A stretch of 64,000 bases of DNA from Vogesella oryzae (GTDB lineage Bacteria > Pseudomonadota > Gammaproteobacteria > Burkholderiales > Chromobacteriaceae). A program made the translations under genes and the position numbers. Where the stretch lies: positions 62,001 through 126,000 of the forward strand of contig NZ_CADEPL010000020.1 of the NCBI RefSeq assembly GCF_902829295.1. The letters run 5' to 3'. The notes under the pieces were generated by a model. That model saw only the letters and a list, made by a program, of their open reading frames with translations. It ran no database searches and was not told where the DNA came from. This document shows, in pieces, positions 1,124 to 3,394 of this stretch (positions are counted from its first letter, which is position 1; every line of letters starts with the position of its first letter).

Positions 1124-2167
1124 TATGGCAAACCGCTGTTGCAGGATGTCGGCATAATCCTCCGGCGTCATTGCCTGTAGTAGCTCCCGCTCCTGCTGTA
1201 GCCACCGTTGCAGCAGTGGGAGCTGGCGATCGCGCTCTTGCAGTTGCGTTGTGCGACTGGCCAACTCGCTGGTTAGTGCCAGCAACCTGGTCTGCAGCTC
1301 CTCTCCTTGCTTGCGGCCAACCTGTAGTTCTTCTGCCATCGCCTGCAGTCGCTGCTGCGCCATTTCGTATTGTGCTTGCTGCCGCCCTTGTTCGCGCGCC
1401 GCATCAGCCTGTTGTTCGCGCAGTGTCTGCCGCACTTCATCACGCTCACGCTCCAGCTGCTGCAATTGAGCCTGCCACTGCGCGGCCTGCTGCTTGAAGC
1501 TGCTGCGCTCGCTTTCTACTTGTTGGTACAACTGAATCCGCATGCCTTCAAAGCGCTCGTAGGCCAGTGTTTCGCGCCGTGCAGCCTCCTGCGCCGCCTG
1601 CTGCAAGCGCTCATCGTGGCGTTGCTCCAGGGCAACCACCCGATTGTCGGCATCTTTCTGTGCCAGCAATAGCTGCTGGCGCGCCTCGTCCAGCGAGCTG
1701 GTTAAGCCACTCAAACTCTCCTCAAGCACCTGTCTGCGCCTCGCTTCTTCGGCGTACTGCTGCTGGAGCTGTTGGTATTGCTGCTTCAGCAGCTCGTGTT
1801 CCTGCGCCAGTGCGGCCAATTGCGCGCTACGTGCATCGTATTGCCGATGCTGCTCGGCCAGCTCGCCCACCAGTCGCTCGACCTCGGCCTTGCACTCTTC
1901 ACGCAGGCTCTCAAGATGCGATTCAGCTTGGTCGCATGCGCGTTGCCATAACTGGTCAACAGCCTCGGCCAAGCCTGTCGGCCAGTCCGGCCGCCTCACA
2001 TTGCTGGCCATGCGCGCCAGAAACTCCTGCCGCCACTGTTTCAAGGTGTTGTTGATGGTGGTATTGGAGCCTGTGCCTAGTCGCGCCCGCACCTCTACCA
2101 CGGTTGGCCACTCCCCTTCGGCAATCAATTCGAATGCGACTTGCCTTATGCGCGCATAGATATCCAT
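1103..2167 (-). CDS. KfrA-type DNA-binding coiled-coil protein
   Basis: The 354-residue protein has an N-terminal helix-turn-helix (about residues 1-55, starting MDIYARIRQVAFELIAEG, with GTGSNTTINNTLKQWR as the recognition part) that matches the KfrA N-terminal family known from plasmid-encoded DNA-binding proteins. It is followed from about residue 85 to 330 by an almost uninterrupted Gln/Glu/Arg/Ala-rich coiled coil. KfrA proteins autorepress and act in plasmid partition. ATG 2167 has a perfect AGGAGG at the right spacing. The gene is divergent from a tyrosine recombinase and shares its 129-bp control region. A role as architectural or accessory partner of that recombinase is inference. Confidence 0.8.
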   Translation of the reverse strand: MDIYARIRQVAFELIAEGEWPTVVEVRARLGTGSNTTINNTLKQWRQEFLARMASNVRRPDWPTGLAEAVDQLWQRACDQAESHLESLREECKAEVERLVGELAEQHRQYDARSAQLAALAQEHELLKQQYQQLQQQYAEEARRRQVLEESLSGLTSSLDEARQQLLLAQKDADNRVVALEQRHDERLQQAAQEAARRETLAYERFEGMRIQLYQQVESERSSFKQQAAQWQAQLQQLERERDEVRQTLREQQADAAREQGRQQAQYEMAQQRLQAMAEELQVGRKQGEELQTRLLALTSELASRTTQLQERDRQLPLLQRWLQQERELLQAMTPEDYADILQQRFAILLEQTA

Positions 2168-2222
2168 GTATTCCTCCTGTTGCACGCATTTTAGCAGCCA
2201 CAACTGAAAATAAATATTACGT

Positions 2223-2251
2223 ATTACATTAATTAATACATGACTTGCCAA
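2223..2251 (-). promoter_or_regulatory. Predicted promoter of the kfrA-like gene
   Basis: On the minus strand TTGGCA (2251-2246) is followed after exactly 17 bases by TGTAAT (2228-2223), a good sigma-70 match in an AT-rich stretch. It overlaps the -35 of the opposing recombinase promoter. Confidence 0.5.
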
Positions 2252-2273
2252 ATATTTTTCCGATAACTATTCT
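2245..2273 (+). promoter_or_regulatory. Predicted promoter of the tyrosine recombinase
   Basis: TTGCCA (2245-2250), 17-base spacer, TATTCT (2268-2273). The -10 lies in the spacer and right arm of the 2258-2281 inverted repeat, so a protein bound to the repeat would block it. Confidence 0.5.
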
Positions 2274-2281
2274 TATCGGAA
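2258..2281. repeat. dif-like inverted repeat (recombinase core site or operator)
   Basis: TTCCGATAA, six-base spacer CTATTC, TTATCGGAA: perfect 9-bp arms. The ATAA-N6-TTAT inner halves and six-base spacer match the layout of chromosomal dif sites (XerC arm, 6-bp spacer, XerD arm). It lies 15 bases before the recombinase start and between two divergent genes. Either a recombination site of the adjacent enzyme or an operator for the KfrA-like protein would explain it. Confidence 0.6.
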
Positions 2282-2296
2282 GTTATTGATCAAAAG

Positions 2297-3394
2297 TTGC
2301 CACCATTGCTCACACCCTACGCCCCGCAGAACGCCCTTATCCATGCAAGTAGCGATGAAGATGCTGCACTTACCTGGCTCTCAGAGTTCAGCACCCGACC
2401 AGCCACGCTGCGCAGTTATCGCAAAGAAGTCGAGCGCTTTCTGATGTGGCTGCACAACCGGAATCAACACCTTGATGACGTCAAACGCCAGGATGTACTT
2501 GATTACCAGCGCTTTCTTGCCAACCCCTACCCTGCAGAGCGCTGGATCGGCCCAGCCGTCGGGCGAAGCAAGCCGGAATGGAAACCTTTTACCGGCCCGC
2601 TCTCTGCCAGCAGCATCCACCACAGCATCACGATTCTTGGCAGCTTTTATGGCTACCTGAACCAGGCCGGCGTACTTGGCGGTAATCCGTTCCGGCTTTT
2701 ACGCAAACCTTCTCGCCAGAAGATTGAAGAGGTCGAGCGGTACTTTGATGAAGCTGGCTGGCAGGCCATTCTGCAGGCGCTGCGACAATTGCCGGCCAAC
2801 AGCGAGGGGGAGCTTGCCCAGCGCGAGCGATCACGATGGGTTATCAGCCTGCTGTACTTCAGTGGTGCACGCCGCAGCGAGGCCTGCAATGCCGTAATGG
2901 GCGATTTTTTCGAGTCACGCCAGCGCTGGTGGTGGCGCGTAGAGGGCAAGACCGGCATAGCCGATATTCCGGTAAACGACGCCTTGCTTGCGGCATTGCG
3001 CCGCTACCGCCTGCACCTTGGGCTAACGCCACTCCCCGAGCACCGAGAAAGCACACCGCTGATTTGCGCCATTTCCAAACCCGGCAGTGTGCTGCGACCC
3101 ATTGGCGACAAAGCGCTATACCTGATTACCCGCGAAATCTTCCAGCGTGCAGCGGACAATTGCAGCGATGCCGCCTGCCGCGAGAAGCTGCGACAAGCCA
3201 GTACCCACTGGCTGCGCCATACCGCTGCCAGCCATCAACTACAAGCAGGCATCGACTTGCTGCAAGTAAGCCAGAACCTGCGCCACCGCAGCATCCAGAC
3301 CACTCGGCGCTATCTGCACAGCGAGCAGGACGAGCGTCATGACGCCCTCCAAAAGCTTGGCCAGCTAGATGCTGGCGATACGACAGCGAGCTAA
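2297..3394 (+). CDS. Tyrosine recombinase / integrase
   Basis: A 365-residue site-specific recombinase. N-terminal SAM-like core-binding region (about residues 20-140) and C-terminal catalytic domain. Numbering from the TTG at 2297, all catalytic residues are present: R192 (SGARRSEAC), K218, H304 and R307 (HWLRHTAAS), H330 (LRHRS), Y339 (RRYLH). The start is uncertain. The frame is open from 2267 with no ATG before residue 50, and TTG 2297 is the most upstream standard start. No phage genes, att duplication or tRNA are next to it, so a prophage integrase is not supported. It is a Xer-like or stand-alone chromosomal recombinase by context. Confidence 0.85.
   Translation: MPPLLTPYAPQNALIHASSDEDAALTWLSEFSTRPATLRSYRKEVERFLMWLHNRNQHLDDVKRQDVLDYQRFLANPYPAERWIGPAVGRSKPEWKPFTGPLSASSIHHSITILGSFYGYLNQAGVLGGNPFRLLRKPSRQKIEEVERYFDEAGWQAILQALRQLPANSEGELAQRERSRWVISLLYFSGARRSEACNAVMGDFFESRQRWWWRVEGKTGIADIPVNDALLAALRRYRLHLGLTPLPEHRESTPLICAISKPGSVLRPIGDKALYLITREIFQRAADNCSDAACREKLRQASTHWLRHTAASHQLQAGIDLLQVSQNLRHRSIQTTRRYLHSEQDERHDALQKLGQLDAGDTTAS

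Follow-up and report, generated by a model that had tools for sequence, protein, structure and literature searches.

What does a tyrosine recombinase do on a bacterial chromosome when its gene diverges from that of a KfrA-type DNA-binding protein and a dif-like palindrome lies in between? The question is posed by a locus in a 64,000-nucleotide stretch of Vogesella oryzae DNA (contig NZ_CADEPL010000020.1, positions 62,001 to 126,000; the whole of this stretch is called the window here). An initial annotation, made from the letters of the window, had proposed that recombinase, palindrome, and KfrA-type protein form one module and that this arrangement was new. We give a probability of roughly 70% to the reading of the unit as a chromosomal resolution module with a single recombinase. 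In the Chromobacteriaceae, a conserved module of recombinase, palindrome, and KfrA-type protein is supported. Judged from sequence, the palindrome (the core) is most likely the crossover site of the recombinase, and a second motif (the box) most likely belongs to the KfrA-type protein.

Conservation of the gene pair and of the site was followed in 61 Chromobacteriaceae genomes, with a recombinase ortholog regarded as intact at E<1e-100 (G, C, and L numbers are our handles for genomes, contigs, and loci). Intact orthologs, 52 to 71% identical within the family, were present in 35 of the 61 genomes, G060 being counted as intact since the stop inside its match falls beyond the gene's own end. All 35 carried a palindrome linked to kfrA, compared to 2 of the 26 genomes without an intact recombinase (Fisher P of 5e-15, shared ancestry ignored). 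Palindrome matches at no more than two mismatches were found in 39 of the 61 genomes and lay upstream of kfrA in 37 of them; G021 (a perfect match without kfrA) and G048 (two mismatches, neighborhood unread) were counted as negative, and scoring them as positive instead gives a table of 35/0 versus 4/22. Neither recombinase nor kfrA-linked palindrome was found in 24 genomes. Both were missing from G049 and G051 to G054, from G011, G014 to G016, G023, and G024, and from G030 and G031; gene and site were absent jointly in parts of several genera, though they are often unlinked (574 kb apart in G022 and 330 kb apart in G025). On these counts, the module proposed by the initial annotation holds up. 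A search of the window's own genome for further copies returned the palindrome once only, with up to three mismatches allowed, and every matching family genome had one copy, save G005 with a second, degenerate one lacking kfrA. Because of this single copy per genome, no two cores bracket cargo. It is thus highly improbable that the palindrome is an attachment site at which the recombinase, as an integrase, inserts and excises a mobile element, even though several genomes have genes intervening between the core and the recombinase (e.g., L210 to L217) and Legionella LME-1 uses a dif mimic (PMC9765430).

The core shows the perfect inverted repeat of 9-bp arms and a 6-bp spacer that had been annotated, which is the dyad form of XerL/dif. 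Taken alone, this palindrome is weak evidence: ten perfect 9-6-9 palindromes, presumably including terminators, occur in the window, versus 0 to 1 in each of ten dinucleotide shuffles. Its significance lies in its conservation and not in any rarity of such palindromes in the window. Two overlapping promoters had also been predicted, with the recombinase -10 inside the repeat. The latter element was recovered, its -10 spanning the palindrome spacer (one site in the promoter scan versus 0.7 expected from shuffles), but the scan found no promoter for kfrA. The -35 hexamer TTGCCA was present at 8 of 8 Vogesella loci and at 0 of 28 other family loci, while TATAC-like spacers are kept at most of the loci that lack the -35 and have their recombinase at a distance. 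Since these spacers are widespread and TTGCCA is confined to Vogesella, the promoter does not account for the core. The idea that the core spacer is kept only as a recombinase -10 was ruled out, as TATAC-like spacers outlast both the -35 and the adjacent recombinase.

The box, with the consensus ATTACGTATTACATTA, was found between palindrome and kfrA at every measured family locus, with 0 to 3 mismatches. The consensus was derived from family loci and then searched there, so its presence is partly by construction, whereas its spacing is not. The distance from box to core, start to start, was 41 to 42 bp at 36 of 36 family loci (standard deviation of 0.43; the G005 locus was left out), and the distance from box to kfrA start varied from 50 to 145 bp at the same loci. 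The box is a full palindrome at some loci only. When 110 bp around each of 45 core sites from outside the family (mostly gammaproteobacterial) were scored for the box, the highest value was 10.8, compared to a family minimum of 19.5 (family scores range from 19.5 to 28.8, and AT-rich shuffles of outside loci reach 20.1 by chance). Thus, the core goes with the recombinase and the box with the Chromobacteriaceae KfrA-type gene, because cores outside the family lack the box, family boxes hold their spacing, and the promoter does not explain the core.

An exact scan of genome contigs for the palindrome returned at least 109 stretches and is not a census. Among the matches listed, the spacer was ATGTTA/TAACAT at all 17 Marinomonas sites, and the 17 Oceanospirillaceae-type loci had TTGTTA (12 loci) or TTGATA (5 loci). 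When copies were counted at no more than two mismatches, the palindrome was single in 17 of 20 genomes, with two or three copies in G065, G072, and G077. A KfrA_N gene was found in 9 of 20 core-bearing genomes, 4 of them Chromobacteriaceae; outside the family, 5 of 16 had one and none was found in the other 11, which included the sole Marinomonas genome searched. One outside core adjoins the gene of a 413-amino-acid recombinase. A homolog of this protein at E<=1e-15 was present in 46 of the 51 core-bearing genomes searched (none in G078, G107, G109, G110, and G111; the locus L105 was left out). The match was of XerL type (E<1e-140) in 42 genomes, including all searched Marinomonas, Oceanospirillaceae, and Thalassomonas genomes, and the other 4 homolog-bearing genomes were Chromobacteriaceae (E of 1e-30 to 1e-37). 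The palindrome therefore accompanies XerL-type recombinases where no KfrA_N gene was found, which makes it most likely that the site belongs to a single recombinase, as had been suggested. The XerL clade also shows that KfrA is not needed for the palindrome to be kept. Palindrome matches in scattered taxa (Firmicutes, archaea, Verrucomicrobia, and others), many of which lie in long symmetric hairpins or open reading frames and can be due to chance, were set aside; our conclusions use only those lineages in which the spacer is conserved and a recombinase is present.

Is the palindrome then a chromosomal dif? For the window, the answer is negative. Its genome encodes a XerC-like protein (334.8 bits) and a XerD-like protein (276.5 bits), and a canonical dif lies at C20:3703 on the same contig, 61 kb from the palindrome. 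Together with the skew position in the closed Vogesella relative G059, where dif is nearer to the skew switch, these rule out the palindrome as the dif-type system of this chromosome. The initial annotation had linked the fate of its module to canonical xerC, xerD, and dif being found elsewhere along with a repeat that is not conserved; the former are there, but the palindrome was kept in every family genome with an intact recombinase. The dif pattern was found at no more than one mismatch in 11 of 14 Chromobacteriaceae genomes (two mismatches in G056, none found in G037 and G045). The picture was different for the XerL-type genomes, most of which had neither a detectable XerCD nor a canonical dif. 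A XerC model at E<=1e-30, which was positive in 11 of 14 control genomes, gave no match in 32 of 42 XerL-type core-bearing genomes. Matches at XerC and XerD level plus a canonical dif were present in G066 and G072; the XerC model further matched in G089, a metagenome-assembled genome (MAG) labeled Sphingopyxis (281 and 233 bits), in G065 (206 and 202 bits on one contig), and at 118 to 222 bits in G062, G077, G086, G095, G099, and G102. The dif pattern was exact in G066 and G072. Among the other 41 genomes, it had one mismatch in G106 and G091; otherwise, only two-mismatch hits of unlike sequence were found (47, including those of G066 and G072, versus 24 for a reversed control). A stricter 24-base pattern at no more than three mismatches was found in 4 of 22 genomes (G066, G072, G073, and, at three mismatches, G071).

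The position of the site was followed by cumulative guanine-cytosine (GC) skew in four XerL-type genomes, with 359 to 400 kb read around each site. The palindrome lay 6.2 kb from the skew maximum in M. ostreistagni, 2.7 kb in Thalassomonas, 0.1 kb in M. fungiae, and 47 kb in Bacterioplanes sanyensis. The FtsK-orienting polar sequence (KOPS) octamer, in its E. coli form, flipped strand at the palindrome; no octamer deviated in M. ostreistagni or Thalassomonas, and two did so in each of M. fungiae and B. sanyensis. A skew drop at the palindrome was observed at 27 of the 31 XerL-only loci that had 1 kb or more of sequence to either side (sign test P of 3e-5; Marinomonas, 12 of 12; Oceanospirillaceae type, 11 of 14; others, 4 of 5). 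Because of this position and the lack of a recognizable XerCD, the palindrome is probably dif itself in the XerL clade. In the Chromobacteriaceae, the kfrA-linked palindrome lay 9 to 312 kb from dif in all genomes with a dif match (12 of the 14 tested) yet off the skew maximum and is thus located in the terminus half, away from the point of dimer resolution. The skew analysis that had been suggested as a check, run on G059, does not place the palindrome at the skew switch. Six loci (L380, L381, L384, L385, L382, and L383, in G003, G005, G034, G002, G066, and G072, respectively) carry a second recombinase 0.8 to 9.2 kb from canonical dif, 35 to 48% identical to the window or 413-amino-acid query; the G072 copy contains stop codons.

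The recombinase itself is complete. All six catalytic residues named in the initial annotation (R192, K218, H304, R307, H330, and Y339) are in place, and they were invariant across an alignment of 55 of 55 recombinases that included six XerC/XerD proteins. The start 15 bp past the repeat is consistent with the open reading frame, but the alternative TTG matches the starts of homologs (alignment by eye) and is possible instead. The protein scored 85.3 bits with the XerC model (cutoff of 335), 80.5 bits with the XerD model (cutoff of 330), and 50 bits with the XerS model (cutoff of 267). In a maximum-likelihood tree of 56 recombinases, in which TnpS, L141, L382, L373, and L390a are long branches of unsure place, XerCD stood apart (97/92) from a group with the XerL-type clade (100/98) and the window clade (97/94). 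The window clade lies outside the XerL clade and is nested with plasmid recombinases and the dif-near paralogs. The XerL-type clade takes in a Rickettsiella protein with a tyrosine at 387, the catalytic residue of XerL (PMC9765430), and its XerL-type likeness is anchored on this protein, not on the chromosomal XerL of L. pneumophila. Two Legionella plasmid homologs, among the matches listed, are 51 to 55% identical to the Rickettsiella protein. Parts of the palindrome arms were not found in the available text of PMC9765430.

Beyond the family genomes, the closest relatives of the window recombinase are plasmid borne, with matches at E<=1e-15 in 1527 of 72,556 plasmid records. Identity reached 47% in short fragments and 44% in alignments that covered most of the protein; it was 41 to 44% for seven of the ten best plasmid matches and 43 to 44% for the top five. 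The Klebsiella plasmid matches, among those listed, were mostly Tn4401 "TnpR," and the single recombinase match among phage records was a Klebsiella record. Seven plasmid regions were inspected, of which five had a divergent KfrA_N protein and six had an ATAA-N6-TWAT core. On pWW0, the helper of Tn4651 matched KfrA_N at E of 2.6e-26 and diverges from the recombinase gene; we take these two to be TnpT and TnpS, names that agree with the layout. With plasmid and transposon recombinases as the nearest outside homologs, one of them beside a Tn3-family transposase, the module could be what is left of a Tn4651-type transposon or an integrated plasmid, having outlived its transposase and having no current role. 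We consider this very unlikely, since an intact ortholog is present in 35 of 61 genomes, all six catalytic residues are kept in 18 aligned orthologs, different genera share the site, the box, and their spacing, and the flanks consist of a gene for a protein with a GAF domain and one for a methyl-accepting chemotaxis receptor (MCP), with no transposon parts. The KfrA-type gene, dif, and xerC share one contig, so the gene is chromosomal and not plasmid borne, and only 11 of 72,556 plasmid records matched the KfrA-type protein at E<=1e-5. The divergent KfrA-like coiled-coil protein had been called correctly (its coiled coil was assigned by reading and by weak SMC-type matches). A second KfrA_N gene (L007, G000:C16:34309-34644; 51 bits) is found in the genome of the window. 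L141 (3081-5654, Burkholderiales MAG), with a coiled-coil protein without Pfam match, a palindrome whose arms are 21 bp or longer, a motif resembling the box, and a recombinase of only 26% identity, is a very diverged copy of the layout and was not used as a case.

The claim that the arrangement is new could not be upheld, because a layout of recombinase, KfrA_N protein, core, and accessory site is known in Tn4651-type transposons and in plasmids. TnpS and TnpT have been described, with TnpT termed a protein without apparent homology to others (PMC7157771), and rst consists of an accessory palindrome bound by TnpT and a core recognized by TnpS (PMC4619425). As in the TnpS-TnpT/rst system of these Tn3-family transposons, the window recombinase diverges from a KfrA_N helper, and core and accessory motif are intergenic. 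The window unit differs in being chromosomal, and in several genomes its recombinase gene lies far from the site; tnpA is absent from its immediate flanks, and terminal repeats were not searched for. The plasmid pairs of Burkholderiales and Rhodanobacter (e.g., pENH91) share the nearest sequences, the divergent KfrA_N gene, and the ATAA-N6-TWAT core but have other arm sequences, a plasmid location, and, in some cases, transposon genes beside them. XerL/dif of Legionellales (PMC9765430) resembles the window system in its perfect dyad arms, the frequent separation of site and gene, and the same larger tree group, and one recombinase is predicted for the window system too. The window recombinase, however, does not fall within the XerL clade; its genome also has XerCD/dif, a KfrA-type helper goes with it, and its site is off the skew switch. 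With XerCD/dif, the window system shares the ATAA-N6-TTAT inner core, the catalytic residues, and a chromosomal location in the terminus half, but its recombinase, which probably acts alone, scores far below the XerC cutoff and falls in a separate clade. The initial annotation had compared it to XerS/difSL and XerH/difH; these do use just one recombinase and have the site close to its gene (PMC9765430), but the more fitting comparison, XerL/dif, was not named, and the window recombinase is set apart by score against XerS only. What is new is a vertically kept chromosomal version of the TnpT-rst-TnpS layout.

Several findings weigh against the reading as a resolution module. In G059, the skew maximum is 17 kb away from the canonical dif and 252 kb away from the palindrome, and a skew drop at the palindrome was seen at only 16 of 34 Chromobacteriaceae loci. 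XerCD and dif would make a second dimer-resolution system redundant in this family. The palindrome is present without an intact recombinase in G004, which has only a 48% paralog, and in G020, whose gene is split in two. TnpS gave no significant blastp match to the window recombinase. At L062, outside the family, a KfrA_N gene ends 59 bp from the core, yet there is no box. Finally, the core is beside kfrA at 37 of 37 family loci and not always beside the recombinase, as would befit an operator. KfrA proteins autoregulate, and the palindrome might be a mere operator of a KfrA-type repressor acting on kfrA and, at loci where it adjoins, on the recombinase gene, with the recombination site elsewhere; the core lies 90 to 185 bp from the kfrA start at 36 family loci (about 88 bp at the 37th) and overlaps the recombinase promoter at the 8 Vogesella loci. 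We regard such an operator as unlikely. The 11 outside genomes without KfrA_N keep the core, usually once, and XerL-type recombinases accompany it in every Marinomonas, Oceanospirillaceae, and Thalassomonas genome searched. Of the 11 Marinomonas loci for which both flanks were called, 7 have the core between convergent genes, and in the two Marinomonas genomes measured it is close to the skew maximum. The box follows KfrA and is the better operator candidate.

The anatomy of the locus, the joint occurrence of gene and site, the unchanging distance between box and core, the association of the core with the recombinase and of the box with KfrA, and the terminus-half position were all obtained by computation. 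We infer that each protein binds DNA, that a crossover takes place and in which direction, and what the resolution module acts on in the cell. The recombinase would bind both 9-bp arms of the palindrome and exchange strands within the 6-bp spacers of two site copies that a dimer or cointegrate carries. The KfrA-type protein would bind the box at its fixed distance, as TnpT is reported to do on the accessory palindrome of rst, and may either assemble or bias the synapse or repress transcription. Core and box would work jointly in cis, with the fixed spacing serving a joint complex. In Vogesella, where the core covers the recombinase promoter, this would allow autoregulation. The Chromobacteriaceae module is probably a backup or special-purpose resolvase that was domesticated from a plasmid or transposon and works beside XerCD/dif.

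Features of the recombinase locus in the window (positions refer to the window)
Feature	Position	Strand	Remarks
Core palindrome, TTCCGATAA-CTATTC-TTATCGGAA	2258..2281		Proposed crossover site of the recombinase
Recombinase promoter-like element, TTGCCA (2245-2250)-17-TATTCT (2268-2273)	2245..2273	+	Promoter scan; -10 overlaps core spacer
Tyrosine recombinase, 365 amino acids	2297..3394	+	TTG start at 2297, or at 2306 going by homologs
KfrA_N coiled-coil DNA-binding protein, 354 amino acids	1103..2167	-	PF11740, E of 2.7e-29; ATG at 2167; divergent from recombinase
Shine-Dalgarno AGGAGG of the kfrA-type gene	2173..2178	-	Direct sequence reading
Accessory box, ATTACGTATTACATTA	2216..2231		Proposed site of the KfrA-type protein; 42 bp start to start from core

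Some palindromes outside the family stood in other settings. An Oleiphilaceae MAG carries two XerL-type genes 20 kb apart (L388 and L389, G065:C1:56782-58122 and 76858-78198), each with its own palindrome and with differing spacers; the segment between them is a candidate for an element that makes use of this system. In Oleispira (L387 and L206), a pair of kfrA-type and recombinase genes (KfrA_N at E of 4e-8 and 3.5e-10) adjoins xerL, and at L387 a palindrome is also within 3 kb, placing both kinds of system side by side. Rickettsiella massiliensis (Legionellales; L054 and L081) has two palindromes with differing spacers on two contigs of one genome. Palindrome pairs 156 to 200 bp apart were seen in Lachnospiraceae and one Prevotellaceae MAG (L045, L060, L144, L040, L076, L085, and L135), with mutually inverted spacers in the Lachnospiraceae pairs, as in invertible segments. 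In Oscillibacter (L122), two inverted palindromes enclose 3.6 kb of DNA that includes one or more recombinase-like genes. In two viral contigs (L163 and L165), the palindrome is in or beside a gene that reads as tyrosine integrase-like and is a possible attachment site.

How Legionellales, Colwellia psychrerythraea, and Saccharophagus resolve dimers without dif/Xer was asked by Carnoy and Roten in 2009 (PMC2731167). Nicholson et al. (2022; PMC9765430) answered this with XerL/dif for Legionellales, the only order whose database was queried according to the available part of the paper. In open-license full texts, XerL appeared in two relevant papers, both on Legionella, and among the papers listed there was no earlier report of a XerL-type/dif system in Marinomonas, Colwellia, Saccharophagus, or Oceanospirillales, nor of a link between TnpT and KfrA. 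A search with the arm sequences gave, among the matches listed, no title on recombination. Tentatively, we consider it possible that there is a third Xer lineage, apart from XerCD and XerS/XerH, in beta- and gammaproteobacteria. It would have replaced XerCD, with the palindrome as dif, in Marinomonas, Oceanospirillaceae, Thalassomonas, Aestuariibacter, and Legionellales, and its Chromobacteriaceae sister branch would serve, with help from KfrA, as a second system of resolution that is located in the terminus half and coexists with XerCD/dif. If so, transposon or plasmid resolvases and chromosome dimer resolvases would be variants of one machine. The palindrome of the window leads to a system of the XerL kind in Marinomonas, Oceanospirillaceae, and Thalassomonas, with a dif sequence predicted and a candidate gene named for each such genome, and a cousin of the window module seems to have replaced the usual XerCD/dif in several marine bacterial groups. 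The version in the window ties this kind of system to transposon resolvases, and KfrA_N proteins gain a concrete candidate role on the chromosome, that of an accessory factor of a recombination site.

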